Part shown: piece by piece, positions 8,026-49,052 of the stretch
Layout: each line of letters begins with the position of its first letter
Position numbering within the stretch: the first letter of the stretch is position 1
Assembly: GCA_903939755.1 (NCBI GenBank)
Contig: CAJAII010000036.1
Location: 1-64,000 of the forward strand
DNA length: 64,000 nt
Reading direction: 5' to 3'
DNA from: an uncultured Flavobacteriales bacterium
GTDB taxonomy: Bacteria > Bacteroidota > Bacteroidia > Flavobacteriales_D > Crocinitomicaceae
Program-made: the position numbers and the translations under genes
Notes under the pieces: model-generated
Told to the model about the DNA's origin: nothing
The model's database searches: none
What the model saw: the letters and a program-made list of their open reading frames with translations, nothing else

Positions 8026-11000
8026 TTAACGCATTAAATTAACGTGTCCAGTAATCTCAAATCGGTCATCGCGAAGTGGCGTTTTATAAGAGATTTTGTA
8101 CGTGTATATTCCCTCTTGGCAGTGGTTTCCACTCATTCCATATGTTCCGTCCCATCCTACATTAGGATTGTGACTTTCCCAAACTAGTTCTCCCCATCTG
8201 TTGTATAAGTATAGCGAATAATTAAATGGGTCTACGCCATATGAAAATACAGGAACCCATGTTTGATTGTGTTCATCTGAATCTGGCGTGAATGTATTGG
8301 GTATGTAATATATAAGTGATTCCTCAACAACTACAATTTGTGTCATGGTATCTACACAACCATGAACGGTTGTTGCTGTTAATTCGATGGTATAATTGGT
8401 CGGTGGATAGGGAGGAAATGCATGTGATGGGCTTTCTTCCGTTGATGGAGCGCTGCCATCTCCAAAATCCCAAAAATAGGTATCTGCACCTGCTGAACCA
8501 TTGTTCATAAAGGCAGTGTTTGTGATATCATTTAAAGTATTTGGTGAAGGAGTAAATATAGCAGTTGGATTCGGGTATACACAAATATAATCGTTGATTG
8601 TTGCGGTCCAAATACATCCTAATGCGGTAGTAACTGTTAATTGAACATCATAGCAACCTGGTGTATTGTAGGTATGGTTAATACTGGAACAATCAGAACC
8701 TGTTTGACCATCACCAAAATCCCAAAAGCAACTAACTCCAGGTGTACTGGTGGAGGTATTGTTAAACGTTACTTGAAGGGGTTCGCAACCATCAGTTACA
8801 GGTGCAATGAATGAAACATTCGTTATCGGTTCAATTGCTACAGTTATGCTATCGTTATCGATGCATCCATTTGAATCGGTTCCAATTACTTCATAAGAAC
8901 TACTTGCAGCTGGAATAAAAGAAACACCATTAACTACATTATTGTTCCAAACATAACTAACTGCCCCACTGCCCGAAAGGGTTAAGGTGGCTCCTGAACA
9001 AATTATTTGGTCATTTCCAGCGATAACGACGGGATTCGGGAAAATTAGCACATTAACGATGTTTGTATCTATACAACCATTCAAATCTGTTCCTGTAACG
9101 GTGAAGTTATAGTTGCCTACTGCAGGAATAAACGATACGCCATCTAAAACATTTCCATCCCAAACATAGGTGGCAGCACCTGCAGCACTTAAGGTAACGC
9201 TTGTCCCAACACATTCTGAAATATCAATTCCTCCGTCTACAATTGGTTGAGGAAATACAGTTACAAATAAACTGTCGATATCTTGGCAGGTATTCGTATC
9301 TGTAACAACTACTGAAAGGTAGGTGCTATTGGTAGGGGTATAGTTTGAGCCGTTTGCGGTACCAGTTTCCCAAATATAGGTAAATCCACCTGTTGCATTT
9401 AAAGTGATCGGGAAATTGGGACATACTGAAACATCTGGTCCTGCATCGATTGTTGGAGTCGGGTAGATAGTTACCACTTGTTGCAAAGTATCATCACAAG
9501 CATTGGCATTTTGAGCGATTAATGTGACCGTATACTGACCGGCTGTTGCGAAAACGTGCGTTGGACTGGTAAGCGAGGAGTTTTGTGAACCATCTCCAAA
9601 ATTCCAATCATAGGTCAGTGGTAAAGGATCAACAGTTGTGTTCGTACAAGTTGCTATTAATCCCTCGCATGCATTAGTAATGTTAAAGTTAACTGTAGGA
9701 TTATTTTGAATATTAACCTGAACGGTATCGGTATCAATACAGCCATTTACATCTGTTCCAGTTACAATATAATTTTGGATACCTACCAATTGTGAAAAAG
9801 GAACAGCATTAATGACACCATTATTCCAGGTATAGGTTTGAGCGCCTGAACCATTTAAAGTTACAGTGGTTCCTGTACAAGCGGCAATGTCAAGTCCAGC
9901 ACTAACAATGGGTTGAGGAAAAACAGTTACCGTTGCAGAATCAGAATTTACACATCCGTTGATGTCAATGGCAGTTACCGTATAATTTGCAGTAGATAAG
10001 GGCGTAAATGGCACGTTATTCTGAATTCCATTATTCCAGGAATAATTAACTGCACCACTAGCATTTAATGTTGCCGAAAATCCGGGACAAATTGATTGAT
10101 CTATACCAGCATTAACATTTGGTAGCGGATAAATGACAAGTGGCTGGATAAGAGTGTCAATACATCCCCCTTGGTTGGCAGCAATTAAACTTACATTGTA
10201 TGTTCCCGCTGTTGGATAGGTGTATGTTGGGTTGACCACATTTGTTGTTGGGCTTCCATTTCCAAAATTCCAAGTGTAAGTACAAGGAGTAGGATCCACC
10301 GTTTGATTCACAAAAGTTACGGTTTGGTTGACACACGTATCATTCATTGTGAAATTAATCGAAGGGGGTGGAGAAATAGTAATTACTTGTGAAATAGTAT
10401 CAGAACATCCTGCTTGGGTAGTGGTAATATGTGTTACCGTGTATGTTCCTGCATTTTGGTAAATATGAGTCGGATTCATATGCACGTTTGGATCATTTCC
10501 ACTCAAGGTTGAATTATCTCCGAAATTCCATTGCCATGAATATGCCCCACCATTTGGTAAAGGCACACCACCAACTGTATTTGGCGTAATAACTGTTGTT
10601 GAATTAAATTGTATTGGAGACCAAGGACATGCGGAACCATAAGTAAAGTTAGCATTTAAAGTCGTAGGAATTGATTGTGCGCTAATAGAAACAGTACAGT
10701 TTCCTTGATTACTGAACGATTGCATTGTGCAGGTGTATTGCTGATTATTACCTGGATTATTAACGGTGATACTTTGTGACGTTGAACCACCTGGTTGCCA
10801 AGAGTAGGATTGGAATCCAGAAGGAGCGGTTAATTGAACTTGGTTGGCACCAAAACAAAAGTCAACATCAATTATTAATGGCATGCATTCAGCTACCACA
10901 TAAGCATAACCATAATGACCACTTTGACTGCAATCACGTGTAGTGAATTCAACGGTTATATTTTGACCTATGTATGGGGTTAAGTTTAAGCCTACCACCG

Positions 11001-11547
11001 TCCAAGGCAACCAAGTTTGTCCACCGCAGTTTTGAAAGTTTTGACCTGGCTGACCACCATATACAGTATATATTCCACAGTTGCCCCCAATTTGTTGTCC
11101 TGCAGCATTAAGAACCCTTGCTTGAAAGGTTGGTTGGTTATTTGGCGCGTGTCCAGGATTCTGCAATACAACGGCATATTTATAAACAAAAAGTGCATTT
11201 GATTGAGAAACATTAATTTGATAAGTAATTCTTTCTCCCTGTGCGCCTGTACTTGAATTCCCTAATCTTAATGAACGGTTGTGTCCTGGAGGAATCATTT
11301 GCAAGCCCCCACATGTGTTTGGGTCTATTCCCGGTGCTGTAATTATGGTGTGTCTTCCATTAACAATCCCAAAACTGGCTCCTGGATTTGCATAATTACC
11401 AGTATAACCTGTCCAACCAGTAAAATTATTCATGTTCAAATTGGCATTCGGACATCCTGGTTGTAGGTATTGTGCATAAATAGGAGAAAGAAACGCTATT
11501 AAAACTAAACTAATAAATAGCGTTAAGCGTAAAGTAAAATTTTTCAA
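8026..11547 (-). CDS. Giant secreted PKD-repeat protein, longer paralogue, T9SS type B
   Basis: 1173 residues with the same plan as the neighbouring 954-residue protein: signal peptide, a ~200-residue N-terminal domain (QPGCPNANLNMNNFTGWTGY), then more PKD/Ig-like modules (WQWNFGDNS, YTWNFGNGS, YDWNFGDGS, WDFGDGQTG, YFWDFGDGS) and an IPNTFTPDSDEHNQTW...YNRWGE...WDGTYG sorting domain. The size difference comes from extra internal modules. The start is TTG at 11547, giving the typical MKNFTLRLTLF leader. It lies 65 bp downstream of the last small array gene on the same strand, so it could be read from that operon. Likely a surface adhesin. Confidence 0.9.
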   Translation of the reverse strand: MKNFTLRLTLFISLVLIAFLSPIYAQYLQPGCPNANLNMNNFTGWTGYTGNYANPGASFGIVNGRHTIITAPGIDPNTCGGLQMIPPGHNRSLRLGNSSTGAQGERITYQINVSQSNALFVYKYAVVLQNPGHAPNNQPTFQARVLNAAGQQIGGNCGIYTVYGGQPGQNFQNCGGQTWLPWTVVGLNLTPYIGQNITVEFTTRDCSQSGHYGYAYVVAECMPLIIDVDFCFGANQVQLTAPSGFQSYSWQPGGSTSQSITVNNPGNNQQYTCTMQSFSNQGNCTVSISAQSIPTTLNANFTYGSACPWSPIQFNSTTVITPNTVGGVPLPNGGAYSWQWNFGDNSTLSGNDPNVHMNPTHIYQNAGTYTVTHITTTQAGCSDTISQVITISPPPSINFTMNDTCVNQTVTFVNQTVDPTPCTYTWNFGNGSPTTNVVNPTYTYPTAGTYNVSLIAANQGGCIDTLIQPLVIYPLPNVNAGIDQSICPGFSATLNASGAVNYSWNNGIQNNVPFTPLSTANYTVTAIDINGCVNSDSATVTVFPQPIVSAGLDIAACTGTTVTLNGSGAQTYTWNNGVINAVPFSQLVGIQNYIVTGTDVNGCIDTDTVQVNIQNNPTVNFNITNACEGLIATCTNTTVDPLPLTYDWNFGDGSQNSSLTSPTHVFATAGQYTVTLIAQNANACDDTLQQVVTIYPTPTIDAGPDVSVCPNFPITLNATGGFTYIWETGTANGSNYTPTNSTYLSVVVTDTNTCQDIDSLFVTVFPQPIVDGGIDISECVGTSVTLSAAGAATYVWDGNVLDGVSFIPAVGNYNFTVTGTDLNGCIDTNIVNVLIFPNPVVIAGNDQIICSGATLTLSGSGAVSYVWNNNVVNGVSFIPAASSSYEVIGTDSNGCIDNDSITVAIEPITNVSFIAPVTDGCEPLQVTFNNTSTSTPGVSCFWDFGDGQTGSDCSSINHTYNTPGCYDVQLTVTTALGCIWTATINDYICVYPNPTAIFTPSPNTLNDITNTAFMNNGSAGADTYFWDFGDGSAPSTEESPSHAFPPYPPTNYTIELTATTVHGCVDTMTQIVVVEESLIYYIPNTFTPDSDEHNQTWVPVFSYGVDPFNYSLYLYNRWGELVWESHNPNVGWDGTYGMSGNHCQEGIYTYKISYKTPLRDDRFEITGHVNLMR

Positions 11548-11612: not shown

Positions 11613-11969
11613 TCAGGGTATTATATTAAATTCAATAATACTGAGTATTCCTCCCGCAGCACCACCAGCACTACCAAAGGTAACCGATGTGCCAGCCGAA
11701 AGCCAAAAAGGAAAATTCGCTACTTGGGAGGAGGTTAATTGCTGACGAAGATTATAATACACCCCATTATATAACATGTACGTATAGGTATTACTAGTCG
11801 AGTTCAACATGCAATTTTCTAATTTCCAAACTTTACCCGCGGGAACTGTAATTGGTGTCGTGTTGCTCGAGGCAAATGCATAAGTAATCACCTGATTAAA
11901 CTGCAAGTTCCCTTGGGCGAAAGAGGACTGAATGCTAACCAAAAAAAGGAAAATTAAAATAACTCTCAT
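11613..11969 (-). CDS. GNLQFNQV-family small secreted protein, left arm member 5 (last)
   Basis: 118 residues. Signal peptide ending SSFAQ, then GNLQFNQV, TVPAGKVWKLE, FPFWLSAGT and the terminal SIIEFNIIP. One Cys in the mature chain (LENC). It overlaps the previous gene by 4 bp (ATGA). As the last gene of the arm it ends CCC TGA rather than the CCA TGA that all internal members use to encode the next start. The core between the conserved motifs is unique. Function unknown; presumed small extracellular beta protein. Confidence 0.85.
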   Translation of the reverse strand: MRVILIFLFLVSIQSSFAQGNLQFNQVITYAFASSNTTPITVPAGKVWKLENCMLNSTSNTYTYMLYNGVYYNLRQQLTSSQVANFPFWLSAGTSVTFGSAGGAAGGILSIIEFNIIP

Positions 11970-12370
11970 GGTATAATATTAAATTCTAAAATACTTACTT
12001 TATTTAAACACGGTCCTCCCGATAAAGTTACCCCTCCAGGTAACCAGATTGGCAATTCTGTATATCCTTGAGTATAAGTAATATTAGACAATTGTAAAGC
12101 TCCTACCCCTTGACCTGTTTTTGTTGGCACCCCTGCTACTTCAATAGCAAAATTTTGAAACGTATTAACACCGCAACTTAACGATTGTGATGTTTGATAG
12201 GAACTCATCTCGGATGGAATGTTATAAATTACACTTTCAATTTTCCACACCTTTCCAGCAGGTACTGTTTCTAGCGCGGTAACTAATTTTACTTGGTTAA
12301 ACTGCAAGTTTCCTTGGGCATAAGCAAGTTGATTAAGCAGAACAAAAACAATAAAGTAGAGTTTCTTCAT
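11966..12370 (-). CDS. GNLQFNQV-family small secreted protein, left arm member 4
   Basis: 134 residues. Signal peptide to about QLAYA, then QGNLQFNQV, TVPAGKVWKIE, LPIWLPGG and SILEFNIIP. Two Cys in the mature chain (SLSCG and GPCLN) could form a disulfide. The opening KLVTALETVPAGKVWK closely matches left member 3 and right-arm members 2 and 9. The 3' end overlaps the next start by 4 bp, so translation is probably coupled. Confidence 0.85.
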   Translation of the reverse strand: MKKLYFIVFVLLNQLAYAQGNLQFNQVKLVTALETVPAGKVWKIESVIYNIPSEMSSYQTSQSLSCGVNTFQNFAIEVAGVPTKTGQGVGALQLSNITYTQGYTELPIWLPGGVTLSGGPCLNKVSILEFNIIP

Positions 12371-12798
12371 GGTATAATGTTAAATTCTATAACACTCAAA
12401 CTTAATACATTGGTGGACGCAGCTAATGTAGTGCTTGCAGGTAACCAGATTGGTGCATCAAAAATTTTATAATCAGATGCGGTTGCGTAACCGTCTTGAC
12501 TCCAATAGCCATCACTTCTACCTACCTCTCTAGTGATAGTAGTTTGTAGAAATACTTGGTTACCATTGACTAACATTATAAAATTCTTTGTTCCTCCAGC
12601 AGTGGATTGGTTTGGAGGTCTATTTAAATCTTCTGCGAGTTGCGAGGAAGGCAAATAATTTTCAACTTTCCATACTTTACCTGCAGGAACAGTTTCAATA
12701 GTGGTAACCAATTTTACTTGGTTGAACTGTAGGTTTCCTTGTGAAAAAGCACCCGTATATAGCAAAATCGTAATGATGATTATGTAAAGTCTTTTCAT
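12367..12798 (-). CDS. GNLQFNQV-family small secreted protein, left arm member 3
   Basis: 143 residues, the longest member. Signal peptide, then SQGNLQFNQVKLVTTIETV, PAGKVWKVENYLP, APIWLPASTTL and SLSVIEFNIIP. No Cys in the mature chain. It shares KLV..IETVPAGKVWKV with right-arm members 2 and 9, and L..Y....LSVIEFNI near the end with right member 9, which suggests exchange between the two divergent arms. ATGA overlap with its neighbours on both sides. Confidence 0.85.
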   Translation of the reverse strand: MKRLYIIIITILLYTGAFSQGNLQFNQVKLVTTIETVPAGKVWKVENYLPSSQLAEDLNRPPNQSTAGGTKNFIMLVNGNQVFLQTTITREVGRSDGYWSQDGYATASDYKIFDAPIWLPASTTLAASTNVLSLSVIEFNIIP

Positions 12799-13181
12799 GG
12801 TATAATGTTAAATTCAATTATACTTACCCATCGATAACCTGCAGTTCCATTGCAAGCAAATGCGTGTAAAGGAGTTCCCGCTGGCAACCAAAATTGCTGT
12901 GTTGAAGAGGCATAAGTATAAGCTGCTGAATAACTATCTGTAGATCCTGCTCGAAACGCAGGGTTTACTCCATTAAAGCTAAAATCACAATTGTAATAAC
13001 TGGTAAGATTAGTCCCATATCCTTCTATTTTCCATGTTTTACCTGCAGGAACTGTTCCAAGTAATACGTTTGAATTTAGATTTGTGGAAAGTAATAATAC
13101 TTGATTAAATTGCAAGTTTCCTTGCGAATAGGCTCCCGAAGATAGGAAAATGGTAATTATGAAAATGTAAAGTCTTTTCAT
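12795..13181 (-). CDS. GNLQFNQV-family small secreted protein, left arm member 2
   Basis: 128 residues. Signal peptide ending GAYS, then QGNLQFNQV, TVPAGKTWKIE, QFWLPAGTPL and VSIIEFNIIP. Two Cys (YYNCDF and FACNG). Its signal peptide (MKRLYIFIITIFL) is nearly the same as that of member 3 (MKRLYIIIITILL) although the cores are unrelated. That pattern fits domain or cassette shuffling. ATGA overlaps on both sides. Confidence 0.85.
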   Translation of the reverse strand: MKRLYIFIITIFLSSGAYSQGNLQFNQVLLLSTNLNSNVLLGTVPAGKTWKIEGYGTNLTSYYNCDFSFNGVNPAFRAGSTDSYSAAYTYASSTQQFWLPAGTPLHAFACNGTAGYRWVSIIEFNIIP

Positions 13182-13513
13182 GGGATAATATTAAATTCTA
13201 TAATATTGAAATGGGTAGTTGCATGGTATCCTGAAATAGTTGATCCTGCAGGTAACCAAATAGGGCCTGTTGGCAATGATCCGCCCGAACCCTGTGGAAA
13301 CCAGTTTTGCCCATTTATTACCAATGAGGAATATAATGCACTACCAGTAGAATTATAGGATTGCGCAGTGTTTTCTACTTTCCAAATTTTTCCAGCAGGA
13401 ACAGTGTTAAGCGCCGGTCCGCTGAATAGGAGAGCTTGATTAAACTGCAAGTTACCCTGCGAAAAAACCACATAGTTAAAAAGTATACTTACTATTAGTA
13501 ACAAGTTTTTCAT
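13178..13513 (-). CDS. GNLQFNQV-family small secreted protein, left arm member 1
   Basis: 111 residues, among the shortest. Signal peptide ending VVFS, then QGNLQFNQA (Ala instead of Val), TVPAGKIWKVE, GPIWLPAGSTI and NIIEFNIIP. No Cys in the mature chain. It is the first small gene after the fibre genes on this strand, starting 21 bp downstream of the collagen-like gene, so fibre and small proteins should be co-transcribed. Core rich in Ser, Gly and Asn. Confidence 0.85.
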   Translation of the reverse strand: MKNLLLIVSILFNYVVFSQGNLQFNQALLFSGPALNTVPAGKIWKVENTAQSYNSTGSALYSSLVINGQNWFPQGSGGSLPTGPIWLPAGSTISGYHATTHFNIIEFNIIP

Positions 13514-13534
13514 GAGATAGGAATAAGGCTAAAA

Positions 13535-15046
13535 TTAAAAGCCGTCCGCTGTATAAATAAGGGTATTTGCTGAAGAAGATGACCCTCCTCCTGCAGCAGC
13601 TCCACCAATTGCTGTCCAAGCTGTTCCATTAAAATAATAGAAACCTGCTGTTCCGTCTGTTTGGAAAATTAGTAATCCAGTTGCAGGACTTAAAATCGCT
13701 GATTTCTGGGCTAAAGTCATGGTAGGTAACAATAAACCCTGTGTGGTAGATTGAACATCTAATATGGCAGAAGAATTCGGCGAAATGGTTCCAATTCCTA
13801 TGGCTGTACCTGTATTCGTTAATGTTGAATTGGCTACCCATGTTGTGCCATTATTACGTAATGTTTCATTATTACTTCCAGCCGGCAATGCTCCCGCTGG
13901 TCCCTGCGGACCAGTAGCACCTGTTGCGCCGGTCAACCCTTGAACACCCTGAGCTCCTGCTGGGCCAGTAGCACCTGTTAATCCTTGAATGCCTTGTGCT
14001 CCTGCTGGTCCAGTAGCGCCTGTTAATCCAGTTGGCCCAGTGGGTCCTGCAACACCTTGTGCTCCTGCAGGTCCTGTAGCGCCTGTTAATCCTGTAAGTC
14101 CAGTTGGACCAGTTGGACCAGCTATACCTTGAATTCCTTGAGCCCCTGCTGCACCGGTAGCTCCTGCTGGCCCTGTTGCACCTGTTAATCCCGTAAGTCC
14201 AGTTGGACCAGTTGGACCTGCAACACCTTGAAGACCTTGTGCACCAGCTGGTCCGGTAGCACCTGCTGGACCTGTAGCTCCTGTTAATCCAGTTGGACCC
14301 GCTGGACCCGTTGGACCTGCTGCACCTTGAGCTCCTGCAGGTCCTGTAGCTCCTGTTAATCCCGTTGGACCTGTTGGTCCTGCTACACCTTGAATTCCTT
14401 GTGCTCCAGCTGGTCCGGTGGCACCTGTTAATCCAGTTGGACCCGTTGCTCCAGCAGCTCCTGCTGGCCCTGTAATATTACCGGTTAGCGTCCAAGTTGT
14501 GGCTGCTGATTTATAATAAACATTCCCATTAGTCATGTTGAGGTAAAAATCACCCATTGCCCCAAGCGCACCTGCTGGAATCACATTTCCATATCGCCAT
14601 TGATTTAATTGGTTACCTGCATTTTTAGCATAAAGCGCGTATGGCACGCTCATTAATTGTTGGGAGCCATAATCCAAGTAGTTCGTTCCGTTGGTAAAAC
14701 TCACGCCAAGACTTACGAAATAAGGGCCTGTAGCCCAATTAATCGTTGACATGTTCCCACCAAGAAGTGTTCCTTGTCCAATGACTAAATTCACAACACC
14801 TTGCGCTGATGTGGTAACACTGTGTCTTTCTTGAAATACGATCGTGCCTGAAGCAGATGTTTGTTTTATTTGTATCCGTATCGCAATAGTTGTATTAGCG
14901 ATTAAAGACCCTGAAAGATTTCGGATAACCGCTTGATAATTGATACCATCAGGCGCTTGAGCTAAGGCCTTTGAATTTGGAGCAAAGAGCACTAAAAAGA
15001 ATAAGGCCGTTGCTAAGGTTAAATTTGAAAGTAAAGTTTTTTTCAT
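13535..15046 (-). CDS. Collagen-like (Gly-X-Y) secreted fibre protein
   Basis: 503 residues. Signal peptide (to about ALAQ, 30), then [18 protein letters not shown] and a ~150-residue N-terminal domain ending [12 protein letters not shown], the conserved opening of many Bacteroidota fibre proteins. Residues ~193-386 form about 64 Gly-X-Y triplets (GPAG, GATG, GLTG, GAQG types), expected to fold as a collagen-like triple helix. The C-terminal ~115 residues contain [14 protein letters not shown] and [12 protein letters not shown]...YYFNGTAW, a common Bacteroidota tip region, and end in a Gly/Ser stretch. No S74 chaperone and no T9SS domain are seen. It lies 31 bp downstream of the S74-bearing paralogue and 21 bp upstream of the small-protein array. 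Confidence 0.88.
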
Positions 15047-15077
15047 TTTTTGTCTAATTAAATTTATTTATGATCTT

Positions 15078-17120
15078 CTATTTTTTTTCTAATGCTTCAA
15101 TTCTTTTTAATAAATCTTCTATTACTTTATCTTGCTCTTTTAACGCTTGAACAAGTATTGGAATAACTTCTGTATACCCTACAGTTTTCAGACTTACTGT
15201 CCCTGCATCAATTCCATCTGATCTCAGCGATATATTTGGAATAATTTTGTTTTTAACTATTGCAGGAAGTATTGTCTCCACTTCTTGTGCAATAAATCCG
15301 TAAGTTAGCCCTGCTTTCAATCCCAGTCCAGGAAACTCATCTAATCGGTGTTCGTATGAAACGCCCCTTAAATTATTGATAATGGAACGGGCATCAGTGA
15401 TTGTGTTAATGTTCTTTTTAATTTTTAGATCGGAAGCACTTCCAAAATATCCTGTATACCCTAAATCATTTTGAAAAAAACCGCCCCAACCGTTAAGAGG
15501 CAAAACTGATACGGACCCATTAACACCAATAGCGTCAGCGTTATTGGTTATTCCTCGGACACCAGCTGAAGCCCCACTTCCAATATGTTCACCTTGCACA
15601 GCACCATAAGTGGTTGTATTGCCAGCTAATATAGTTCCAAACACACCACTACCATTAAAGGATGAATAACCATTTACAGCCCAAGGAAAGGTAGCATTTG
15701 AAACACCATTCATTAAATCGCCCGCCATAACCGTTGAGGTGGCTCCAATGAAAAATTCCCCAAGATTACTTATTCTACCTCTAACTAAATTATTTGTTCT
15801 GAAGTCAATAGAATAGTTATTGTTTGTGCCAAAACTAAGATCGCTGGCACTAGTATTACCCCCTATAAGTAATGTTTTATTAGTTGAATTTACCGTTTGT
15901 GGAACACTCGTAATAATTGATAAAGTTCCATCTGTTAGAAAGTTGTCGGAAGTAATTGATGTAGCAGTACCTGCCGCTCCAGTTGCACCCGTAGCCCCTG
16001 TTAATCCTTGAGGGCCTTGTGCTCCCGCTGGTCCTGTTGCACCTGTCAATCCTTGAATACCTTGTGCTCCAGCAGCTCCAGTAGCTCCAGTAGTCCCTGC
16101 TGGTCCTGTTAAACCAATCGGTCCTTGTGCTCCGGCTGGTCCTGTTGCACCCGTCAATCCTTGAATGCCTTGGGCACCAGTTGCTCCTGTAGCTCCTGCC
16201 GGTCCAGTCAAACCAATAAGTCCTTGTGCCCCAGTTGCCCCGGCTGGTCCAGTTAAACCTTGAATACCTTGCGCACCAGTTGCTCCTGTAGCCCCTGCTG
16301 GTCCAGTTAAACCAATAAGCCCTTGTGCTCCAGTTGCTCCTGCCGGTCCAGTTAATCCAATCGGTCCTTGTGCACCTGTTGCCCCTGTTAATCCAGTTGC
16401 CCCTGTTAATCCAGTTGGTCCCGCAGGCCCTGTTGCTCCAGTAGCCCCTGCCGGCCCTGTCGCTCCTATTGGTCCTGTCGCACCTGCTGGTCCAGTTAAT
16501 CCTTGAATTCCTTGTACTCCTGCTGGTCCGGTGGCTCCTGTTAATCCAGTTGCACCCGCAGCTCCTGCTGGTCCTGTAATATTACCTGTTAGCGTCCAAG
16601 TAGTTGCGTTTGATTTATAATAGACATTACCATTGGTCATATTTAAGTAGAAATCACCCAATGCTCCAAGTCCAACAGCTGGTAAGGTATTCCCGTAACG
16701 CCACTGATTCAATTGATTTCCTGCGTTTTTTGCATAAAGCGCATAGGGTACGCTCATTAATTGTTGCGAGCCATAATCTAAATATGTTGATCCATTGGTA
16801 AAACTAACCCCAAGACAAGCAAAATAGGGGCCTGTACCCCAATTTATTGTAGAAAAATTTCCGCCAAGAAGTGCCCCTTGTCCTATGACTAAATTCACAA
16901 CGCCTTGCGCCGAAGTGGTAACGCTGTGTCTTTCTTGATATACAATTGTACCAGAAGCAGAGGTTTGTTTTATTTGAATCCGTATCGCAATAGTTGTATT
17001 GGCAACCAAAGTGCCAGACAGATTTCGAATAACAGCTTGATAATTGACACCATCAGGCGCTTGTCCAAAGGAAGATTGTGAAAGTAGCAAAAGAGCTAAA
17101 AATAGTATAGATTTTTTCAT
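15078..17120 (-). CDS. Collagen-like fibre protein with C-terminal S74 intramolecular chaperone
   Basis: 680 residues. Signal peptide (to SSFGQ, 20), the same [16 protein letters not shown]...YALYAKNAG domain as its neighbour, then about 67 Gly-X-Y triplets (residues ~183-385). A ~175-residue globular region follows, then a peptidase S74 domain from Ser563: [43 protein letters not shown] Lys/Glu/Leu coiled coil ends the protein. In phage tail spikes and MYRF this domain trimerises the fibre and then cuts itself off at the Ser; the Ser563/Lys568 pair has the Ser-x4-Lys spacing of the MYRF dyad. Expected product: a secreted trimeric fibre, first gene of the leftward operon. Confidence 0.9.
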
Positions 17121-17384
17121 TCCGGCATCATGATTAAATTCAGTTTTAAAATTACAAATTAAAAAATGAAAAATAAAATTATTAGTAATTTATTAAACAA
17201 AAGATATTTTATATTTAATCTAGATATTAAGTTATTAAAGGGATTAATTCAATAATTTTATTGTGTTGAGATTCATTATTTGCAACGATGAATATTTTTA
17301 CTAATTTAGACTAATGAAAATACCTTTTAAAACCATACTGGATTCCCAAAGGGCTTTATTTACAATTGATCACAAAACTTTATC
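17121..17384. promoter_or_regulatory. Shared divergent promoter region of the two arms
   Basis: 264 very AT-rich bases separate the divergent fibre operon and the right-arm array. A rightward candidate promoter is TTTG at 17279-17282, a 19-base spacer, then TAATTTAG at 17302-17309. That is one base from the Bacteroidota -7 consensus TAnnTTTG, with about 75 bases of leader. No equally good leftward element was found. Any regulator binding here could set both arms together. Confidence 0.4.
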
Positions 17385-17807
17385 ATGAAAATAATCCTAT
17401 TAGTTAGCATTCTTTGGTGTGGGTTTTTTTATTCGCAAGGTAATCTACAATTTAATCAAGTGAAGATGGTTTCAAATACAGACGCCCCACAAGTTGTCCC
17501 TGCTGGAAAGGTTTGGAAGATTGAGAGTGTTATCAGTGATGGGGGACAGGATTCTTACCCTGTTCAAACGTCAGGGTCAACACAATCTTTTTTTGGTGCG
17601 TGTGGCGTTCCTGCTTTTTATTATTTATATTATGGTAAATATTTAGCGATCAATAGCATGCCTATTAGTTTTGGAATACACAGTTCTGGAGGAGTAATGA
17701 CCTCTTTACCTTTGTGGGTGCCTGCTGGTTCAACAATTTGCATGTGTACGAGTTCCACCTTTTGCGCACGTGGCTACTCAGTAATCGAATTTAATATTGT
17801 ACCATGA
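17385..17807 (+). CDS. GNLQFNQV-family small secreted protein, right arm member 1
   Basis: 140 residues. Signal peptide ending GFFYS, then QGNLQFNQV, VVPAGKVWKIE, LPLWVPAGSTI and SVIEFNIVP. It is the most Cys-rich member: GACG, TICMC and TFCA give four Cys in the mature chain, three of them clustered after the WVPAG motif. First gene of the rightward operon; its end overlaps the next start as CCATGA. Confidence 0.87.
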   Translation: MKIILLVSILWCGFFYSQGNLQFNQVKMVSNTDAPQVVPAGKVWKIESVISDGGQDSYPVQTSGSTQSFFGACGVPAFYYLYYGKYLAINSMPISFGIHSSGGVMTSLPLWVPAGSTICMCTSSTFCARGYSVIEFNIVP

Positions 17808-18184
17808 AATCATTTGCTTTTCTCTTATTCGCATTATTTCTTTCCAAATTTGGTTTTTCGCAAGGAAACTTACAGTTCAACCAAGTAAAGTTGGTTTCTA
17901 CTATAGAAACTGTACCAGTTGGAAAAGTCTGGAAAGTGGAGGCGGCATTTGGCGATGCCTTGTTGTCCAATTGTAGCACCCAGCCGATGCACAGGATTGT
18001 AGTAAACAATAATGAACTTACTGTTTCCAATGTTAGTAGTGTTAGTTTTAACGGATACTGTGGAGGCTGGCAGGGAACGGTAAGTGTTACTACTTTTCCT
18101 TTTTGGCTTCCCGCTGGTTCAACGTTGGCAATAAGCTCCAATGTAGTTTCCATTAGTGTTATAGAATTTAATATTATACCATGA
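17804..18184 (+). CDS. GNLQFNQV-family small secreted protein, right arm member 2
   Basis: 126 residues. Signal peptide ending FGFS, then QGNLQFNQVKLVSTIETV, PVGKVWKVE, FPFWLPAGSTL and ISVIEFNIIP. Two Cys (SNCST and GYCGG). The KLVSTIETVP segment pairs it with right member 9 and left members 3 and 4. ATGA overlaps on both sides. Unknown function. Confidence 0.87.
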   Translation: MKSFAFLLFALFLSKFGFSQGNLQFNQVKLVSTIETVPVGKVWKVEAAFGDALLSNCSTQPMHRIVVNNNELTVSNVSSVSFNGYCGGWQGTVSVTTFPFWLPAGSTLAISSNVVSISVIEFNIIP

Positions 18185-18573
18185 ATTTTCTTTCACTATT
18201 TATCTTTCCACTACTTTTCAATACAGTCGCTATTTCACAAGGAAACTTGCAATTTAACCAGGTAGTTTCTTATTCGGGCACATCATCTTCAAACAATAGT
18301 CCGACTTGGACTGTTCCAATTGGGAAAGTTTGGAAAATTGAAACGGCTTCTGCTTCTTATGGCTTAACGGCTTTTAGGAGGGTTTATGTAGATGCAGGTG
18401 GTGGCTTCGGTAATTTTTCCATATCAAATGTTAACGAAACCACAGCGCCTCAAGTCTTTCCAATTTGGTTAAAGTCGGGTGATCAAGTTTATGTTTTTGC
18501 TTCGTGTTCAAGCTGCGGCGTACAAGTTTTAAACTACGTAATATCTATTATTGAATTTAATATTATCCCATGA
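18181..18573 (+). CDS. GNLQFNQV-family small secreted protein, right arm member 3
   Basis: 130 residues. Signal peptide, SQGNLQFNQV, TVPIGKVWKIE, FPIWLKSGDQV and SIIEFNIIP. Contains CSSC after the WLKSG motif, a spacing able to form a vicinal-type disulfide or bind a metal. WLKSGD/WLKAGD is the alternative form of the WLPAGT motif, shared with members 5, 7 and 8. Confidence 0.87.
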   Translation: MNFLSLFIFPLLFNTVAISQGNLQFNQVVSYSGTSSSNNSPTWTVPIGKVWKIETASASYGLTAFRRVYVDAGGGFGNFSISNVNETTAPQVFPIWLKSGDQVYVFASCSSCGVQVLNYVISIIEFNIIP

Positions 18574-18920
18574 AATCACTTTCTTTTTTATTTTTTACAT
18601 TTTTCATAGTCTCAATTGGTTTTTCGCAAGGAAACTTACAGTTTAATCAGGTTTTAAACTTGTCATTTTCTGCAGGCGGAGCCAATTTCGCTGTTCCTCC
18701 TGGAAAAGTTTGGAAAATTGAAACTGTAAGTTTGAGCAGTTACTCATCTTATTTCAGTTTGAGTGTGGCTGGTCAAAGTGTTTTTCTTAAAAATACCCAC
18801 TCGGGTTATGGCCCTGTTTTCGAATCTTTTCCATTTTGGGTTGCGGGTGGACAAAACGTATTTATGAGTGGTTTAAATAGTGGTGTTGCAAGTGTAATCG
18901 AATTTAATGTTGTACCATGA
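18570..18920 (+). CDS. GNLQFNQV-family small secreted protein, right arm member 4
   Basis: 116 residues. Signal peptide ending IGFS, QGNLQFNQV, AVPPGKVWKIE, FPFWVAGGQNV and SVIEFNVVP. No Cys in the mature chain; core rich in Ser. ATGA overlaps both neighbours. The WVAGG motif is a relaxed version of WLPAG. Confidence 0.86.
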   Translation: MKSLSFLFFTFFIVSIGFSQGNLQFNQVLNLSFSAGGANFAVPPGKVWKIETVSLSSYSSYFSLSVAGQSVFLKNTHSGYGPVFESFPFWVAGGQNVFMSGLNSGVASVIEFNVVP

Positions 18921-19300
18921 AAAACTTTCTTTTTTTCACCTTCTTACTTTTCAGTTTGAGCTTTACGGCTCAAGGAAATTTGCAGTTCAATCAAGTAGTT
19001 ACATTGACAGGAACAACTATTATAGATCCCTTTACATTGGCCACTGTACCTGCTGGAAAAGTTTGGAAGATTGAACATTCATCAGCTGCACGAGCAGGTT
19101 CTCCTGCAATAGTAAATTATGTTTGTAATAATGTTTCTTCACCAAATTCTCTTCCTCAATCAAATTGGGGATCCTACAAGATGCAAGTTAATGGACCAAT
19201 TTGGCTGAAAGCTGGAGACTCAATAAAGTTTTCTTATTCGTCTAACAGTTATCCTACAGACTATTTTTTTTCCATTATTGAATTTAATGTTGTTCCATGA
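18917..19300 (+). CDS. GNLQFNQV-family small secreted protein, right arm member 5
   Basis: 127 residues. Signal peptide ending LSFTA, then QGNLQFNQV, TVPAGKVWKIE, GPIWLKAGDSI and SIIEFNVVP. One Cys (NYVCNN). The SFTAQGNLQFNQV junction is shared with members 6 and 8, so these three probably descend from a common signal-peptide module. ATGA overlaps. Confidence 0.86.
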   Translation: MKNFLFFTFLLFSLSFTAQGNLQFNQVVTLTGTTIIDPFTLATVPAGKVWKIEHSSAARAGSPAIVNYVCNNVSSPNSLPQSNWGSYKMQVNGPIWLKAGDSIKFSYSSNSYPTDYFFSIIEFNVVP

Positions 19301-19632
19301 GAAATCTCCTTTTTTTATTCTTCCTTCTTATCCGTTTCAGCTTTACAGCTCAAGGGAACTTGCAGTTTAATCAGGTGTTAATTTTGGATGGAAATACCAG
19401 CACGCCAACTTACACTGTCCCTGCTGGAAAAGTATGGAAAGTTGAGAGCGCTACAATTAGTAGCATAAATGGTTATCTTGCGCTTTCAATTAATGGTTCT
19501 GCAGCGTCGATATTGCAAGTTGTAAATGGTGGGAACAATCTTCCATATTGGATTCCTGCTGGCACCTTGGTTGGGTTTTATATTGCATCCGTAGGAAAAG
19601 TTTCTATTATTGAATTTAATGTCATTCCATGA
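19297..19632 (+). CDS. GNLQFNQV-family small secreted protein, right arm member 6
   Basis: 111 residues, the shortest right-arm family member. Signal peptide MRNLLFLFFLL...FSFTA, then QGNLQFNQV, TVPAGKVWKVE, LPYWIPAGTLV and SIIEFNVIP. No Cys. Because it is so compact it shows the minimal family fold: two conserved blocks near the N-terminus, one W-x-P/K-A-G block and the C-terminal strand. ATGA overlaps. Confidence 0.86.
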   Translation: MRNLLFLFFLLIRFSFTAQGNLQFNQVLILDGNTSTPTYTVPAGKVWKVESATISSINGYLALSINGSAASILQVVNGGNNLPYWIPAGTLVGFYIASVGKVSIIEFNVIP

Positions 19633-20018
19633 AGCACTTAATTATTATCATTTTTCTTTTTGCCTTAAACAACTTGCATTCGCAAGGAAATCTTCAGTTT
19701 AACCAGGTCTTAAGGGTTAGTAATACTCCGCAAACCGTTCCTGTAGGAAAAGTTTGGAAGGTAGAATCGTATTTGGAAAATGAAGGGGATAATTCTCCTA
19801 ATTATGCAACAGGTTGTACCAACCTAGGTTATCATCGCCCTCTTACTATTAATAATTATAATTATTATTTTGTGGGATCAATAGCATACGGAAACACTGC
19901 TTTTGTGCAATTAACGAATGCAAATAAACTTCCTGTTTGGCTAAAAGCTGGGGATATAATCAAAACTACTTGTATTCAAGATTTTGCAAGCGTCCTCGAA
20001 TTTAACATTGTACCATGA
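19629..20018 (+). CDS. GNLQFNQV-family small secreted protein, right arm member 7
   Basis: 129 residues. Signal peptide ending NNLHS, QGNLQFNQV, TVPVGKVWKVESYLE, LPVWLKAGDII and SVLEFNIVP. Two Cys (TGCTN and TTCIQ). It is the closest relative of member 8 (shared KVESY/KIESY, YHRPL/RHHPF, WLKAGDI, TTC), so this pair is the clearest recent duplication within the array. ATGA overlaps. Confidence 0.86.
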   Translation: MKHLIIIIFLFALNNLHSQGNLQFNQVLRVSNTPQTVPVGKVWKVESYLENEGDNSPNYATGCTNLGYHRPLTINNYNYYFVGSIAYGNTAFVQLTNANKLPVWLKAGDIIKTTCIQDFASVLEFNIVP

Positions 20019-20407
20019 GAAATCTCGTATTTTTACTTTTTCTTTCCATTAGTTTGAGCTTTACAGCTCAAGGAAATCTCCAATTTAATCAAGTGCTGCG
20101 TATACATAATATAGCTCAGGCTGTTCCCGCTAACAAAGTGTGGAAAATAGAATCGTATATGCAATCTCAAACGGCATTAAGTGATGGAACGGAAATGTCT
20201 ACCTGTAATTATCTGGATCGTCATCACCCTTTTCTTATCAACACAAAACCTTATTATTTAATCAATGGCTCCCCAGGACATGGAAGTTCAGGGACCTATA
20301 TGGCTGTTGGAAATCAATTGCCATTATGGTTGAAGGCTGGTGATATTGTCCAAACTACATGTGTCGATAATTTTTTAAGTATTTTAGAATTTAATATTAT
20401 TCCATGA
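20015..20407 (+). CDS. GNLQFNQV-family small secreted protein, right arm member 8
   Basis: 130 residues. Signal peptide of the MRNL...LSFTA type (as member 6), QGNLQFNQV, AVPANKVWKIESYMQ (Asn in place of Gly), LPLWLKAGDIV and SILEFNIIP. Two Cys (STCNY and TTCVD) at the same places as in member 7. Its signal peptide matches member 6 but its body matches member 7, a mosaic pattern. Confidence 0.86.
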   Translation: MRNLVFLLFLSISLSFTAQGNLQFNQVLRIHNIAQAVPANKVWKIESYMQSQTALSDGTEMSTCNYLDRHHPFLINTKPYYLINGSPGHGSSGTYMAVGNQLPLWLKAGDIVQTTCVDNFLSILEFNIIP

Positions 20408-20787
20408 AAACACTTTCTTTCCTTTTTTTTACTTTCCTTTTATTAAACAAAATTTATTCACAAGGAAATTTGCAGTTTAATCAGGTTAAATTGGTTAGTG
20501 CTATAGAAACAGTGCCAGCGGGTAAAGTTTGGAAGGTAACTAATTTTCTTCCAACTCCCAATGGTAATTATCAGGCTATTATTCAACCCGGACTTGCTGA
20601 ATATTTAATTAATATAAACGGTGTCGCTGTAAATTTAGGGCGCAGGGCTTTTTTTAATACTAATTATAGCCACCAAATGGCTGAAGTTCGACATACAGGC
20701 GACATTTGGTTGGCCGCAGGCACGACACTTGCTGTTTATCAAAATATTGCTCACTTATCAGTCATCGAATTTAATATTGTCCCATGA
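20404..20787 (+). CDS. GNLQFNQV-family small secreted protein, right arm member 9
   Basis: 127 residues. Signal peptide ending NKIYS, QGNLQFNQVKLVSAIETV, PAGKVWKVTNFLP, GDIWLAAGTTLAVY and HLSVIEFNIVP. No Cys in the mature chain. Its nearest relative appears to be left-arm member 3 on the opposite strand (KLV..IETVPAGKVWKV.N.LP and the LSVIEFNI end). ATGA overlaps. Confidence 0.86.
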   Translation: MKTLSFLFFTFLLLNKIYSQGNLQFNQVKLVSAIETVPAGKVWKVTNFLPTPNGNYQAIIQPGLAEYLININGVAVNLGRRAFFNTNYSHQMAEVRHTGDIWLAAGTTLAVYQNIAHLSVIEFNIVP

Positions 20788-21161
20788 AAATTCAGCTATT
20801 ATTTTTTACATTCATTTTTTTTGGCGCTCCGTGTAAAGCGCAAGGCAACCTGGAGTTTAACCAGGCATTGCATTTAGAAATCACTTGTTGTACTGCTTCA
20901 ACTTTTACTGTTCCAGTTGGTAAAGTGTGGAAAATAGAAGGTTCAATGGCCTATAATAATAATAGTCCTACTAGAATAACGGCTATTAATGGTAACCCAA
21001 TGGAGGCATATCTTACAGGATATACCTACCTTAACTATGGCATTTTGCCGATACCTTTACCATATTGGTTACCAATGAATACGCAAGTTTCTTTTAATAC
21101 AGGTTCCGGAGTTGGTCAAAAAGGCTATGTCTCTATCATTGAATTTAATGTTATCCCTTAA
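20784..21161 (+). CDS. GNLQFNQV-family small secreted protein, right arm member 10
   Basis: 125 residues. Signal peptide ending APCKA, then QGNLEFNQA (two changes from consensus), TVPVGKVWKIE, LPYWLPMNTQV and SIIEFNVIP. It has an adjacent Cys-Cys pair (EITCCTA). It is the last canonical member and ends CCT TAA, not CCATGA; the next gene starts 5 bp later without overlap. Confidence 0.86.
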   Translation: MKIQLLFFTFIFFGAPCKAQGNLEFNQALHLEITCCTASTFTVPVGKVWKIEGSMAYNNNSPTRITAINGNPMEAYLTGYTYLNYGILPIPLPYWLPMNTQVSFNTGSGVGQKGYVSIIEFNVIP

Positions 21162-21166: not shown

Positions 21167-21481
21167 ATGAAGTATATATTTTGTTTTTTAGTAGTCGCAT
21201 CTAGTTTTGTCGCGCTTTGCCAAGACACTTCTTTTGTGAAAGTATATTATGCTGGTTCCTACGCACAAGTGCCTGATGGGAAAATTTGGCAATTCGAAAA
21301 AGTATTTGTTTCAAGTGGAGATGGCTTCAATATTAAAATCAATAACGATACTTTTAAAGGAGATTTTATTGGCGGTTCAAAAATACAGATTCCATATTAC
21401 ATCGCTGAAATGGAACTGCTGTCATCGGGAAGCATGGTCTCTTATTTATTATATATCAAACAAAGAAATTCTAAGGAATAA
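21167..21481 (+). CDS. Diverged relative of the small secreted family, end of right arm
   Basis: 104 residues. Signal peptide ending FVALC, then QDTSFVKVYYAG instead of GNLQFNQV, but QVPDGKIWQFEKV clearly matches the family's VPAGKVWKIE block. The W-x-P-A-G block is reduced to IPYYIAEMELL and the EFN(I/V)(I/V)P ending is absent. It starts 5 bp after member 10, so it is probably in the same transcript. Either a decaying member or a functionally different end cap. Confidence 0.7.
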   Translation: MKYIFCFLVVASSFVALCQDTSFVKVYYAGSYAQVPDGKIWQFEKVFVSSGDGFNIKINNDTFKGDFIGGSKIQIPYYIAEMELLSSGSMVSYLLYIKQRNSKE

Positions 21482-21996: not shown

Positions 21997-22983
21997 ATGT
22001 ATAACAAGTTACCAAAAGTTGAGCTTCATATTCACTTGGATTGTTCGCTAAGTTATGATGTGGTCGCCTTATTAATACCTGGTATTTCGATAGAGGAATA
22101 TCAAAAGAAATTTACGGCGCCAAAAAACTGTTGTAGCTTGAATGATTATATTGAATGTGCGCAAGCGGCCATAAATTACATGCAGACAAAGGAACAGTTG
22201 CGAATGGTTACGCTTGATTTATTGGCTCAATTTGATGCTGATAATGTTGTTTATGCTGAGATGCGATTTGCACCATTACAGCACCTTCAATTAGGATTGA
22301 CTGCTGAAGAAGTTGTTCAAGAAGTACTTAATGCTATTGTTGAAGGTAAAAAACTGTACAAAGTGGAAGCGAATGTTATTTTGTGCACTTTGCGTAACTT
22401 CACCGAATCGCAAAGTATGGAAACAGCTGAGTTGGCCTTGAATTTTAAAAATAGCGGTGTTGTTGGATTCGATATTGCTGCAGATGAGGTTGGTTTTCCC
22501 CTAGATAATCATGTTTCAGCGTTTAAATTTGCTAAATCAAATGATATTCTTTGTACAGCTCATGCTGGTGAGGCGCTTGGTCCTAATAGTGTTTGGGAAA
22601 CATTAGAAAAACTTACCCCTAATAGAATTGGTCATGGAATTCGGAGTATTGAAGATGATTTGTTAATTGAACGATTACTTGAAAATAATATTCACTTGGA
22701 AGTTTGTCCAACAAGTAATCAATTAACGCGAGTTTATCCAAGTCTAGAGGAATATCCAATTAATGCGCTCTACAAAACAGGCGTTTCCATGAGTATAAGT
22801 ACAGATGGAAGGGCCATTTCAGCAGTAAATTTAAACGAGGAATATCAATTCATGACCAATCAATACGGTTGGACAATTAATGATTTATATCGAATTAATA
22901 CCGAGGCAATAAAGCATTCTTTTGCGACTGAAGAGGTGAAAGTGGCGATTCAAGCTAAACTAGATGCTTTTTATCTGGTTTAA
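21997..22983 (+). CDS. add: Adenosine deaminase family protein
   Basis: 328 residues, normal for the family. Zinc and catalytic motifs are all placed as expected: HIH at 11-13, HAGEA at 189-193 (zinc His and catalytic Glu192), RIGHG at 210-214, CPTSN at 237-241, and TD with zinc Asp270. The usual second Asp of the TDDP motif is Gly here (STDGRAIS), a variant like the TDNR form of some actinobacterial enzymes, so substrate preference may differ. Predicted to hydrolyse adenosine (or a related purine nucleoside) to inosine in purine salvage. The start follows a terminator by 16 bp; the stop lies 6 bp from a convergent gene. Confidence 0.88.
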   Translation: MYNKLPKVELHIHLDCSLSYDVVALLIPGISIEEYQKKFTAPKNCCSLNDYIECAQAAINYMQTKEQLRMVTLDLLAQFDADNVVYAEMRFAPLQHLQLGLTAEEVVQEVLNAIVEGKKLYKVEANVILCTLRNFTESQSMETAELALNFKNSGVVGFDIAADEVGFPLDNHVSAFKFAKSNDILCTAHAGEALGPNSVWETLEKLTPNRIGHGIRSIEDDLLIERLLENNIHLEVCPTSNQLTRVYPSLEEYPINALYKTGVSMSISTDGRAISAVNLNEEYQFMTNQYGWTINDLYRINTEAIKHSFATEEVKVAIQAKLDAFYLV

Positions 22984-24175: not shown

Positions 24176-24183
24176 AATATTTG

Positions 24184-24265
24184 TGCCCACGACTGGATTC
24201 GAACCAGCACACCAAATGGCACCACCCCCTCAAGATGGCATGTCTACCAATTTCACCACGTGGGC
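24184..24265 (-). tRNA. tRNA-Leu (anticodon GAG)
   Basis: 82 nt on the minus strand. The acceptor arm GCCCACG (5' end at 24265) pairs with CGTGGGC (24185-24191 on +), with discriminator A at 24184. The D arm contains GGTAGACA. Anticodon stem CCATC/GGTGG encloses loop TTGAGGG, giving GAG, which reads CUC/CUU Leu codons. A long variable arm, typical of tRNA-Leu, precedes the T arm with GGTTCGAATCC. CCA is not encoded. Confidence 0.93.
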
Positions 24266-47939: not shown

Positions 47940-49052
47940 TTATTTATTCCGTATGGCTTTAAATTGTTTGTGGGGAGAACCTGAAAAGGCAATGAATTTT
48001 GATGCTATCATATCCTCTTTCGTAATTCCTGTAACTAATATCGAATCGTTTATTTCTTTAATTATTTTAATCGTTTTGTGTTGTATCAAACCGTTTGTTA
48101 ATATGCTCACTTTATTTCCGGAGAGGGCATTGTTTGGCAGCATATAGCCAGCTAATTTCTCCTTTTCATTTAAGTAAGCCATTACATTTAATGGTATTAT
48201 CCCATTTTCTTTCTTTGCCATTTTATAGTATAAAGGCGTAATTTCAGGAGTTTTAAAAGCTGCTTGACCTATTTTTGTGAATGTCGCCTTTCCATAAATT
48301 GTTTCATTTGATTTAAGATTGATTTCTTTGGCGCTCACGTACTTGTTCACATGCTTTGTTTCTACATATACAATAAACTCAGGAGTGGTCGTCTTCTCTA
48401 AAATAGCGATTGTTTTTCCTTTCTCAATGTAAGCGCCAAGCTGGTAATTAACAGCAATTATTTTACCATCGAATGGTGCCGTGAAGAAGTAATTTTTCAT
48501 GTTGTTTTCAAGTGCTTTAATGGCATAATAAGATGCCGTTAATCCTAATTCAGCCATAAAGATCCGTTCTTCATTTGATGAAAAATTGGGAAGTGAAGGA
48601 ATTTTTGTACTTGGGGTAATTTTTTCTAAAAACGCATACCACTTGTCTCTTTCTTGGGGGAATTTAGCGTCAATTTGTGCAAAGACATTTCCAAATTCTC
48701 TAATTAATAATTGTTTTTTCTCTGTTAGGGTATAATATGCTGCATCAGAACTTAATAGGCACAATAATTCATTGGCCTTAAATACCTCGCCAACCCGCCA
48801 TTTTTTATCTCCAACAGCTAGGTTTCCAGAAACTTCAAAAATTATATTGCTTGTATAAGTGGGTTCTTGGTATGCTGGTGAAGAAAATGGAAAAAATCGT
48901 TCTTGAAAGCTTGCTTGGATGCATTCGATTGAAGTGCTTGAATCATTTTTTTGAACTACCAGTGGAGCCTGTTTGGCTTTTACTATCATCCAAATGAAAG
49001 CATTGCACAAGATCACAGCAACAATTATTATTATACAAGTTAAATTTTTCAT
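47940..49052 (-). CDS. Membrane-fusion/periplasmic adaptor-like protein, copy 1
   Basis: 370 residues. N-terminal membrane anchor (~4-24). VSGNLAVGDKKWRVGEVFKA and TAPFDGKIIAVNYQLGAYIEKGKTIAILEK are the two halves of a lipoyl-like domain with a helical hairpin between them, as in HlyD/AcrA adaptors. The C-terminal half is beta-rich. No pump or outer-membrane channel gene is adjacent, so it is an orphan adaptor. It is a near-duplicate of the gene at 52680-53792. The 3' end almost abuts the convergent DUF4301 gene. Confidence 0.8.
   Translation of the reverse strand: MKNLTCIIIIVAVILCNAFIWMIVKAKQAPLVVQKNDSSTSIECIQASFQERFFPFSSPAYQEPTYTSNIIFEVSGNLAVGDKKWRVGEVFKANELLCLLSSDAAYYTLTEKKQLLIREFGNVFAQIDAKFPQERDKWYAFLEKITPSTKIPSLPNFSSNEERIFMAELGLTASYYAIKALENNMKNYFFTAPFDGKIIAVNYQLGAYIEKGKTIAILEKTTTPEFIVYVETKHVNKYVSAKEINLKSNETIYGKATFTKIGQAAFKTPEITPLYYKMAKKENGIIPLNVMAYLNEKEKLAGYMLPNNALSGNKVSILTNGLIQHKTIKIIKEINDSILVTGITKEDMIASKFIAFSGSPHKQFKAIRNK

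Follow-up and report, generated by a model that had tools for sequence, protein, structure and literature searches.

The array locus

The 64,000-nucleotide stretch analysed here, which we call the window, comes from an uncultured Flavobacteriales bacterium of the Crocinitomicaceae (GenBank assembly GCA_903939755.1, contig CAJAII010000036.1, positions 1 to 64,000), and this study concerns two divergent arrays in it of genes for small exported proteins, the GNLQFNQ family, together with the two fibre genes that lie between the arrays. A preliminary description of the window had listed fifteen such genes, five on the minus strand (11613-13513) and ten on the plus strand (17385-21161); number and positions were confirmed, as was a diverged relative just beyond the range 11613..21161. 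The size range given there, 104-143 residues, needs correction, since the fifteen proteins have 111-143 residues and 104 is the length of the diverged relative only. In order of position, and with the letters of the types defined below, the minus-strand genes are 11613..11969 (type C, 118 residues, the last gene of this fibre-side array), 11966..12370 (D, 134), 12367..12798 (G, 143), 12795..13181 (H, 128) and 13178..13513 (E, 111). The plus-strand genes are 17385..17807 (A, 140), 17804..18184 (S, 126), 18181..18573 (T, 130), 18570..18920 (B, 116), 18917..19300 (M, 127), 19297..19632 (V, 111), 19629..20018 (I, 129), 20015..20407 (K, 130), 20404..20787 (Q, 127) and 20784..21161 (R, 125), followed by the diverged relative at 21167..21481 (+), which lacks the GNLQFNQ motif and forms its own type U, found in two other genomes.

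Each of the fifteen proteins has a leader that ends before Gln and then the motifs GNL(Q/E)FNQ(V/A), VPxxKxWK and EFN(I/V)(I/V)P, with a W(L/I/V) block between the latter two, all as originally reported, and 17 alignment columns are invariant among them. The cores, 36-73 residues long, are indeed nearly unrelated from gene to gene, with a mean identity of 26% against 22% for shuffled cores, and the Cys count per body does range from none to four. E-values of the fifteen are at most 2.5e-33 against a profile built from these same sequences. The gene overlaps also held up, in that all 13 gene-to-gene junctions are 4-bp ATGA overlaps. The five left genes follow the two fibre genes and, with a shared strand and gaps of 21 and 31 bp, give the impression of a single operon, from which the ten right genes run divergently. 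Neither Por_Secre_tail nor CHU_C of Pfam matched any of the fifteen proteins, which thus have no recognisable type IX sorting domain, though their genome does have a match to SprA.

The fibre gene next to the left array (13535..15046, minus strand) encodes 503 residues, made up of a leader, an N-domain with the motif YQAVIRN, a collagen-like Gly-X-Y stalk (PF01391) and a short C-terminal part. The second (15078..17120, minus strand) encodes 680 residues, with a YQAVIRN N-domain, a Gly-X-Y stalk (PF01391) and, at its C-terminal end, an S74 chaperone of endosialidase (PF13884), for which the 503-residue fibre has no match. Against the NCBIfam model for the N-domain of mosaic adhesive trimer (MAT) fibres, NF053851, the two score 45.4 and 40.8 bits respectively, both below the cut-off of 60, and about the first half of the model is matched by all 14 YQAVIRN proteins that were chosen by that motif, at 25.5-46.6 bits. 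Judged by sequence, the stalks of the window fibres are PF01391 collagen repeats and not the beta-helix or beta-prism of MAT stalks.

Distribution of the family

The profile search that the preliminary description had proposed returned 5053 relatives at E ≤ 0.001 among 6421 candidates, and none of the at least 120 listed of these 5053 matches has a Pfam domain. Relatives are encoded by 123 stretches of genome contigs, of which the best 80 were taken and 74 loci kept (numbered with L below; the window's own genome is G000); among these best 80 of 123, all kept loci but L035 come from metagenome-assembled genomes or uncultured bacteria, mostly Bacteroidota. All locus counts given here derive from pattern-based fetching and do not describe a random sample. 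The closest named relatives belong to Crocinitomicaceae, Flavobacteriia and, once, Chryseobacterium gleum. Several isolate names among the relatives point to lakes and ponds and, going by these names, the bacterium probably came from lake water. In the genus of the window, 17 of 61 genomes have the family, each with 1 to 18 matches among the matches listed. In the family sample it was found in two of 60 genomes (the window's own and one from another genus), in the order sample in two of 60, both from the same genus, and in the phylum survey in one of 296, where scoring at most 14 candidates per genome makes this weak evidence of absence.

No characterised family with an unrelated function emerged from Pfam, NCBIfam, PHROG, PADLOC or PDB. 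For the fifteen proteins, Pfam, NCBIfam and PHROGs gave single-member matches only (E ≥ 0.023) and PADLOC gave none, nor did the MAT N-domain match any of them. Partial PDB matches, among them NTF2-like and RsgI3, were rejected at E ≥ 0.26, and the TNF/C1q-like head families (BclA-C, C1q), trimers with a jelly-roll fold, had no sequence match in Pfam or PDB. One member, compared with 50,697 phage records and 72,556 plasmid records, matched none of them. None of the titles returned by literature searches concerns the GNLQFNQ family, and the string 'GNLQFNQ' occurs in no paper searched.

Conserved types and the exchange of whole bodies

When 167 genes from 22 loci, some of which share a genome, were grouped at a 57% identity threshold, they fell into 23 types and six singletons; this set omits L036, which has the same array as L114, and the near-duplicate L049, and with both included there are 180 genes, 24 types and six singletons. 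The arrays of different species are different strings of the same types. In the comparison of the window with L106, L107 and L022 (25 pairs, one skipped), the ratio of nonsynonymous to synonymous substitution (dN/dS) is 0.16-0.22 overall, and by region 0.16-0.24 in the core, 0.04-0.07 in the frame and 0.30-0.40 in the leader, with 0.41 as the highest single pair. By this measure the cores are conserved types under purifying selection and are not hypervariable.

Bodies and leaders have separate histories. Among 155 genes from 19 genomes, 200 pairs have bodies at least 80% identical between genomes, and in 110 of these the leaders are at background identity; conversely, of 62 pairs with leaders at least 90% identical, 25 have bodies below 60%. 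Counting by locus in place of genome gave identical numbers. A clean swap is seen at one place of the left array, occupied by type E in the window and L106 and by type W in L107 and L022; in 30-base windows, identity between the two alternatives is 77-97% as far as the GNLQFNQ codons, drops to 7-63% beyond them and returns to 77-97% once the EFN codons are reached. In L106, four flanking genes are 93-97% and the fibres 84-85% identical to those of the window. No chimeric body, with one half at least 70% and the other at most 40% identical, was found in 10,153 pairs (143 of 158 bodies could be split). From these comparisons, the diversity of the arrays is read as coming from the shuffling of whole bodies.

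The exchange extends across species. Type M of L106 is 97% identical to that of L023 (93% in DNA), while MnmE is 58% identical, and the segment shared by these two loci extends between two successive GNLQFNQ motifs. Types F, B and K likewise give cross-species pairs at 88-96% against an MnmE identity of 58-66%. For the window itself, the type B body is 95% identical in L028 and L109 (MnmE 66%), the type M body 92% identical to L023 (MnmE 59%), and the type K body 91% identical to L109 (MnmE 66%); type C is 96-97% identical in L020, L021 and L022. Over all same-type bodies at an MnmE identity of 50-60%, the mean is 71% (161 pairs), with six pairs at 90% or more. Misbinning is no explanation on the side of L023, because its MnmE is on the same locus as the array; in G049 and G000, MnmE and array are on different contigs. 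Between L023 (6428-7185) and L107 (from 13532 onward), the bodies of types M and F are 94% and 92% identical, with the inner leader at 0.98 and the outer ones at 0.59 and 0.65, and it seems that L023 received a two-gene stretch (M and F) from a relative of L107. The idea that a leader always travels with the preceding body was rejected: it describes one transfer only, and the values were 0.76 for the own leader and 0.78 for the next one (134 pairs).

The preliminary description had also asked whether strains carry identical arrays. L049 has seven complete genes that are 99-100% identical to those of the window and in the same order, and it is the only other locus with type V; between species the arrays differ. 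L049 is a 3.9-kb contig of another assembly and, with one genome per species, the sole possible same-species case; it speaks for stability within a species.

The constant frame

Circular permutants bear on how the frame is built. They were found at L082 (5557-6495), L085 (6951-7964) and in 20 proteins found by search (one of which, P0126, is L082 itself); in each the permuted domain is followed by a Gly-rich stretch, and PF21722 occurs in L082 and the 20 proteins. All 22 fit the permuted profile (50-66 bits) better than the native one (25-38 bits). In them a short turn leads from the C-terminal EFN strand into the LQFNQ strand, so the conserved ends of the native protein should be neighbours. 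A mean-field covariation analysis of 427 sequences (effective number 176), compared with 10 column-permuted controls from which relatedness was not removed, gave two antiparallel ladders, 28-35 with 62-69 (1.98) and 2-9 with 89-96 (1.82), above the best control (1.72); a further segment, 7-14 with 83-90 (1.51), was inside the control range. Taken together, this suggests that the two conserved ends form adjacent strands, and the shared beta fold proposed at the outset is favoured by the ladders and the permutants, to the extent that sequence can tell.

The codons of the frame were compared with genome usage. Summed codon identity was 4.58 at the N-terminal motif against 4.99 expected, and 2.86 at the middle motif against 2.66, so that these codons vary as genome usage would predict and the frame is maintained chiefly for the sake of the protein. 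The C-terminal motif gave a higher value than expected (3.67 against 2.51), where the lower variation is partly forced by the ATG overlap with the next gene. A role of the frame DNA as a recombination site kept for its own sake was considered and is not supported at the N-terminal and middle motifs.

The domain on stalks and its collagen context

At other loci, relatives of the small proteins are fused to stalks. In the window's own genome, L094 (3108-4409) encodes a protein of 433 residues in which the N-domain of the fibres precedes a short collagen segment and the C-terminus carries the domain twice (44 and 22 bits; best profile E 8.3e-9); when the first copy was aligned with the family profile to profile by hhalign, the probability was 96.7% and E 4.5e-10. 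Directly before this fused fibre lies a gene for a 174-residue protein with a type A sorting domain (L094:2581-3105), and at several other loci fibre genes are preceded by small proteins whose tail, by pattern, resembles type A. Also in this genome, L095 (7014-7733, minus strand) encodes 239 residues in which the domain (E 1.7e-5) follows a helical stretch that we read as a coiled coil. In L055 the fibre N-domain is joined directly to a weak match (18 bits), and in the last array genes of L057, L062 and L073 a weak match (20 bits each) follows a helical stretch. An aimed search for the stalk-fused form returned five proteins only.

Of 53 loci counted, 36 have a collagen open reading frame (ORF) no more than 1.5 kb away, and in 32 it is directly upstream on the same strand; the count omits L095 and takes in loci with short upstream sequence only where a collagen ORF is present. 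The arrays at L062 (4119-12929) and L073 (5689-14543) each have 19 members, with the helical-stretch member last and no collagen ORF near. In the own genome, collagen matches occur in seven ORFs, of which two, at contig ends, may belong to a single gene. Apart from the two window fibres and the L094 fusion, the collagen ORF of L128 matches Lcl_C weakly (29.4 bits, cut-off 34.9), and those of L130 and L131 carry Fib_succ_major. This genome thus habitually caps collagen stalks with varied heads, and the arrays resemble such heads released from their stalks. L128 to L131 sit on contigs C2, C69 and C17, and L129 at the end of C2 and L130 at the start of C69 may be one split gene.

Possible function and evolution of the arrays

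The interpretation that we favour, by a small degree of confidence above even, is that the small proteins are stand-alone head, or tip, modules of chimeric surface fibres. Each head would consist of a single compact domain, mostly beta in structure and exported through a Sec signal peptide, in which the GNLQFNQV and EFN-P strands pair to form the constant frame. This frame would be the face that oligomerises, probably into a trimer like the collagen stalk, and that docks on a fibre or on other heads; the core of 36-73 residues would be exposed and bind ligands, with a separate surface target for each type. Collagen-like stalks, with a membrane-proximal N-domain, would come from the fibre genes that lie between the two arrays. 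Since the genes have the frame in common, homologous recombination with breakpoints in frame-encoding DNA can replace a body as a whole, within a species or between species, and this would retool the repertoire of heads and leave assembly intact. The surface role of the first proposal, that of diversified surface subunits, is partly borne out in that relatives cap collagen and helical stalks and collagen genes adjoin 36 of 53 loci; its other suggestion, of effectors, found no support.

A bolder extension, which we put forward only tentatively and think more apt to fail than to hold, is that this is a cassette-based combinatorial fibre system. Its conserved head types, numbering in the dozens, encoded as stand-alone genes and sharing identical docking ends, would pass from species to species as entire bodies when recombination takes place in frame-coding DNA, so that the fibres of each cell carry a genome-specific mixture of heads. 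On this extension the arrays would give bacteria something comparable to a modular binding repertoire, one that evolves by shuffling fixed specificities and not by point mutation.

Several points count against the head interpretation. The family, its arrays, the stalk fusions, the permutation, the purifying selection within types, the body exchange and the interspecies transfer can be read from sequence comparison; fold, trimer, docking on a fibre, surface exposure, adhesion and ligands are what we infer from it. By profile search, neither window fibre carries the head domain, so that we infer docking on these two from position. Most stalk-fused matches are weak (18-25 bits, beside the 44 and 22 bits of L094), and 17 of the 53 counted loci, including two 19-gene arrays, have no nearby collagen ORF, while the 36 of 53 leans upward owing to the selective counting of loci with little upstream sequence. 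By pattern, the GNLQFNQ motif is present in none of eight stalk-fused domains, assigned by hand, against 255 of 346 stand-alone ones; this would fit a docking role and would also fit plain divergence, and several permutants keep the strand. Relatedness effects are left in by the covariation null, the dN/dS pairs were chosen at 75% identity or more, and the leader and body pairs counted are non-independent events. The fifteen proteins have no match to a type IX sorting domain that would account for passage across the outer membrane.

Closely akin to the head interpretation, and differing from it in polymer versus single tip, is a heteropolymeric pilus in which the small proteins, like the subunits of F-ENA, stack as a thin fibre on a collagen-like anchor, with the ends as axial joint and the cores coating the shaft. 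The presence of the domain on a collagen stalk at another locus (L094) and the apparent adjacency of the N- and C-terminal strands would suit such a pilus, and arrays of up to 19 genes with 4-bp overlaps at 149 of 273 junctions would favour co-production. However, DUF4183, the domain of the F-ENA endospore appendages, had no match in 15 members (E ≤ 1) or in 36 members (E ≤ 0.1), the mature chain begins at the conserved strand with no separate hook visible like the N-terminal one through which F-ENA trimers stack, and F-ENA has one subunit type where this genome has fifteen; we consider the pilus unlikely. Less probable again is a set of decoys or phage receptors that vary antigenically under diversifying selection, a view favoured by the differing array content between species and by the swapped bodies. 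The within-type dN/dS reported above, up to its highest regional (0.40, leader) and single-pair values, speaks against it, the mean of 71% among same-type bodies at low MnmE identity fits kept specificities better than escape, and the L049 case shows no change.

It is very improbable that the proteins act on neighbours or hosts as secreted effectors or toxins, each built from a shared export frame and an active core that varies. A constant frame with a variable core, an export signal and a tandem array may resemble effector arrays, but Pfam, NCBIfam and PADLOC gave no catalytic or toxin family match, the overlapping genes leave no space for immunity genes between them, and the fusions go to stalks and not to delivery domains. 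We give least credence, and next to none, to a phage or prophage tail-fibre locus in which the collagen and S74 fibres are accompanied by accessory adhesion proteins. Both fibres do match tail-fibre PHROGs, mostly through the collagen repeat and, in the 680-residue fibre, also at the S74 end; yet the seven other locus proteins of the nine examined have no PHROG match, of the 113 sites in viral contigs that fit the pattern, not one encodes a relative, the phage and plasmid records searched with one member gave no match, and the flanks are syntenic in relatives.

The nearest known working systems are MAT fibres (Bdellovibrio bacteriovorus), F-ENA together with its collagen anchor (Bacillus), Lcl, and BclA/BxpB; by analogy, the heads would work like the MAT tips or the F-ENA subunits. 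The MAT paper speaks of 'tip swapping'. MAT fibres have, immediately behind the signal peptide, a conserved beta-rich domain of about 130 residues, whose model fibres of the window type match weakly, with all 14 below 60 bits; MAT fibres end in S74 or another adhesive tip, and the 680-residue window fibre ends in S74. The MAT stalk, however, is beta-helical where these are collagen-like, and the proposed tips are here separate genes in tandem arrays (PMC10769870). In the F-ENA endospore appendages, small stand-alone beta subunits go together with a collagen-like protein, the F-Anchor, that has the same C-terminal domain (DUF4183), but they come from Gram-positive spores, no sequence relationship was detected, each fibre has one subunit type, and a cassette array is not described in the portion of the preprint drawn on; in F-ENA the anchor is encoded beside the subunit, and here the L094 fusion exists in the same genome, at another locus, with the domain lacking from the window fibres (PMC11952670). 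Legionella Lcl has a collagen stalk with a trimeric glycan-binding head, and Lcl relatives are listed for Fluviicola; the GNLQFNQ domain differs in having no Lcl_C match and in being encoded apart from the stalk in the window (PMC11162425). In the Bacillus exosporium, the jelly-roll head of the collagen-like filament BclA structurally resembles BxpB, a separate small trimeric protein, but BxpB binds the N-terminal part of the stalk and has no sequence match to the present family (PMC10470788).

What is new here is that the domain caps stalks, that its ends are apparently adjacent, that the cores form conserved types, and that whole bodies are shuffled between species, in a family of thousands of members that comes almost only from metagenome-assembled Bacteroidota (among the best 80 of 123) and matches no Pfam or NCBIfam model. 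If the favoured interpretation is true, mostly uncultured bacteria could diversify surface binding through conserved heads with a common joint that are passed between species, and cassette swapping of the variable middle may let related species retool surface adhesion. The E/W swap offers a ready comparison, with the same position and the same fibre but a different head, and joints that stay identical while the cores vary hint at a naturally occurring scaffold for display.

Neighbouring genes and other features

The divergent intergenic region between the two operons (17121..17384) has no invertible promoter that we could recognise, and the inverted repeats around it are short only and make no case for one. 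A Bacteroidota-type promoter pattern was found eight times against 5.4 expected, not above chance, and scans for sigma-70 promoters (28 against 27.8) and terminators (10 against 7.8) were both near chance. On the other side of the left array, 65 bp downstream, lies a gene for a large PKD protein with a type IX signal (CHU_C), 1173 residues long (8026..11547, minus strand), whose membership in the system is uncertain; PKD protein matches also stand beside the array in L106 (189 residues at a contig end), L107 and L022. A second, similar PKD protein with CHU_C, of 954 residues (4880-7744, minus strand), adjoins the first.

The only Rfam match was a tRNA. A tRNA-Leu lies at 24183-24265 (minus strand) near the array region. 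The adenosine-deaminase-like gene at 21997-22983 has no match at E ≤ 1e-60 in any of 16 array-lacking genomes. On the idea that the array site might be a tRNA-bounded island, nine regions from such genomes were compared: MFS and UPRT genes are adjacent in four and within 1.5 kb in five, a tRNA-Leu is present in four, family members occur in none, and the exact empty site was not found among them. Farther along the window, two similar proteins of 370 residues (47940-49052 and 52680-53792, minus strand) flank proteins of 936 (49190-52000) and 194 residues, and by eye this pair reads as a duplication.

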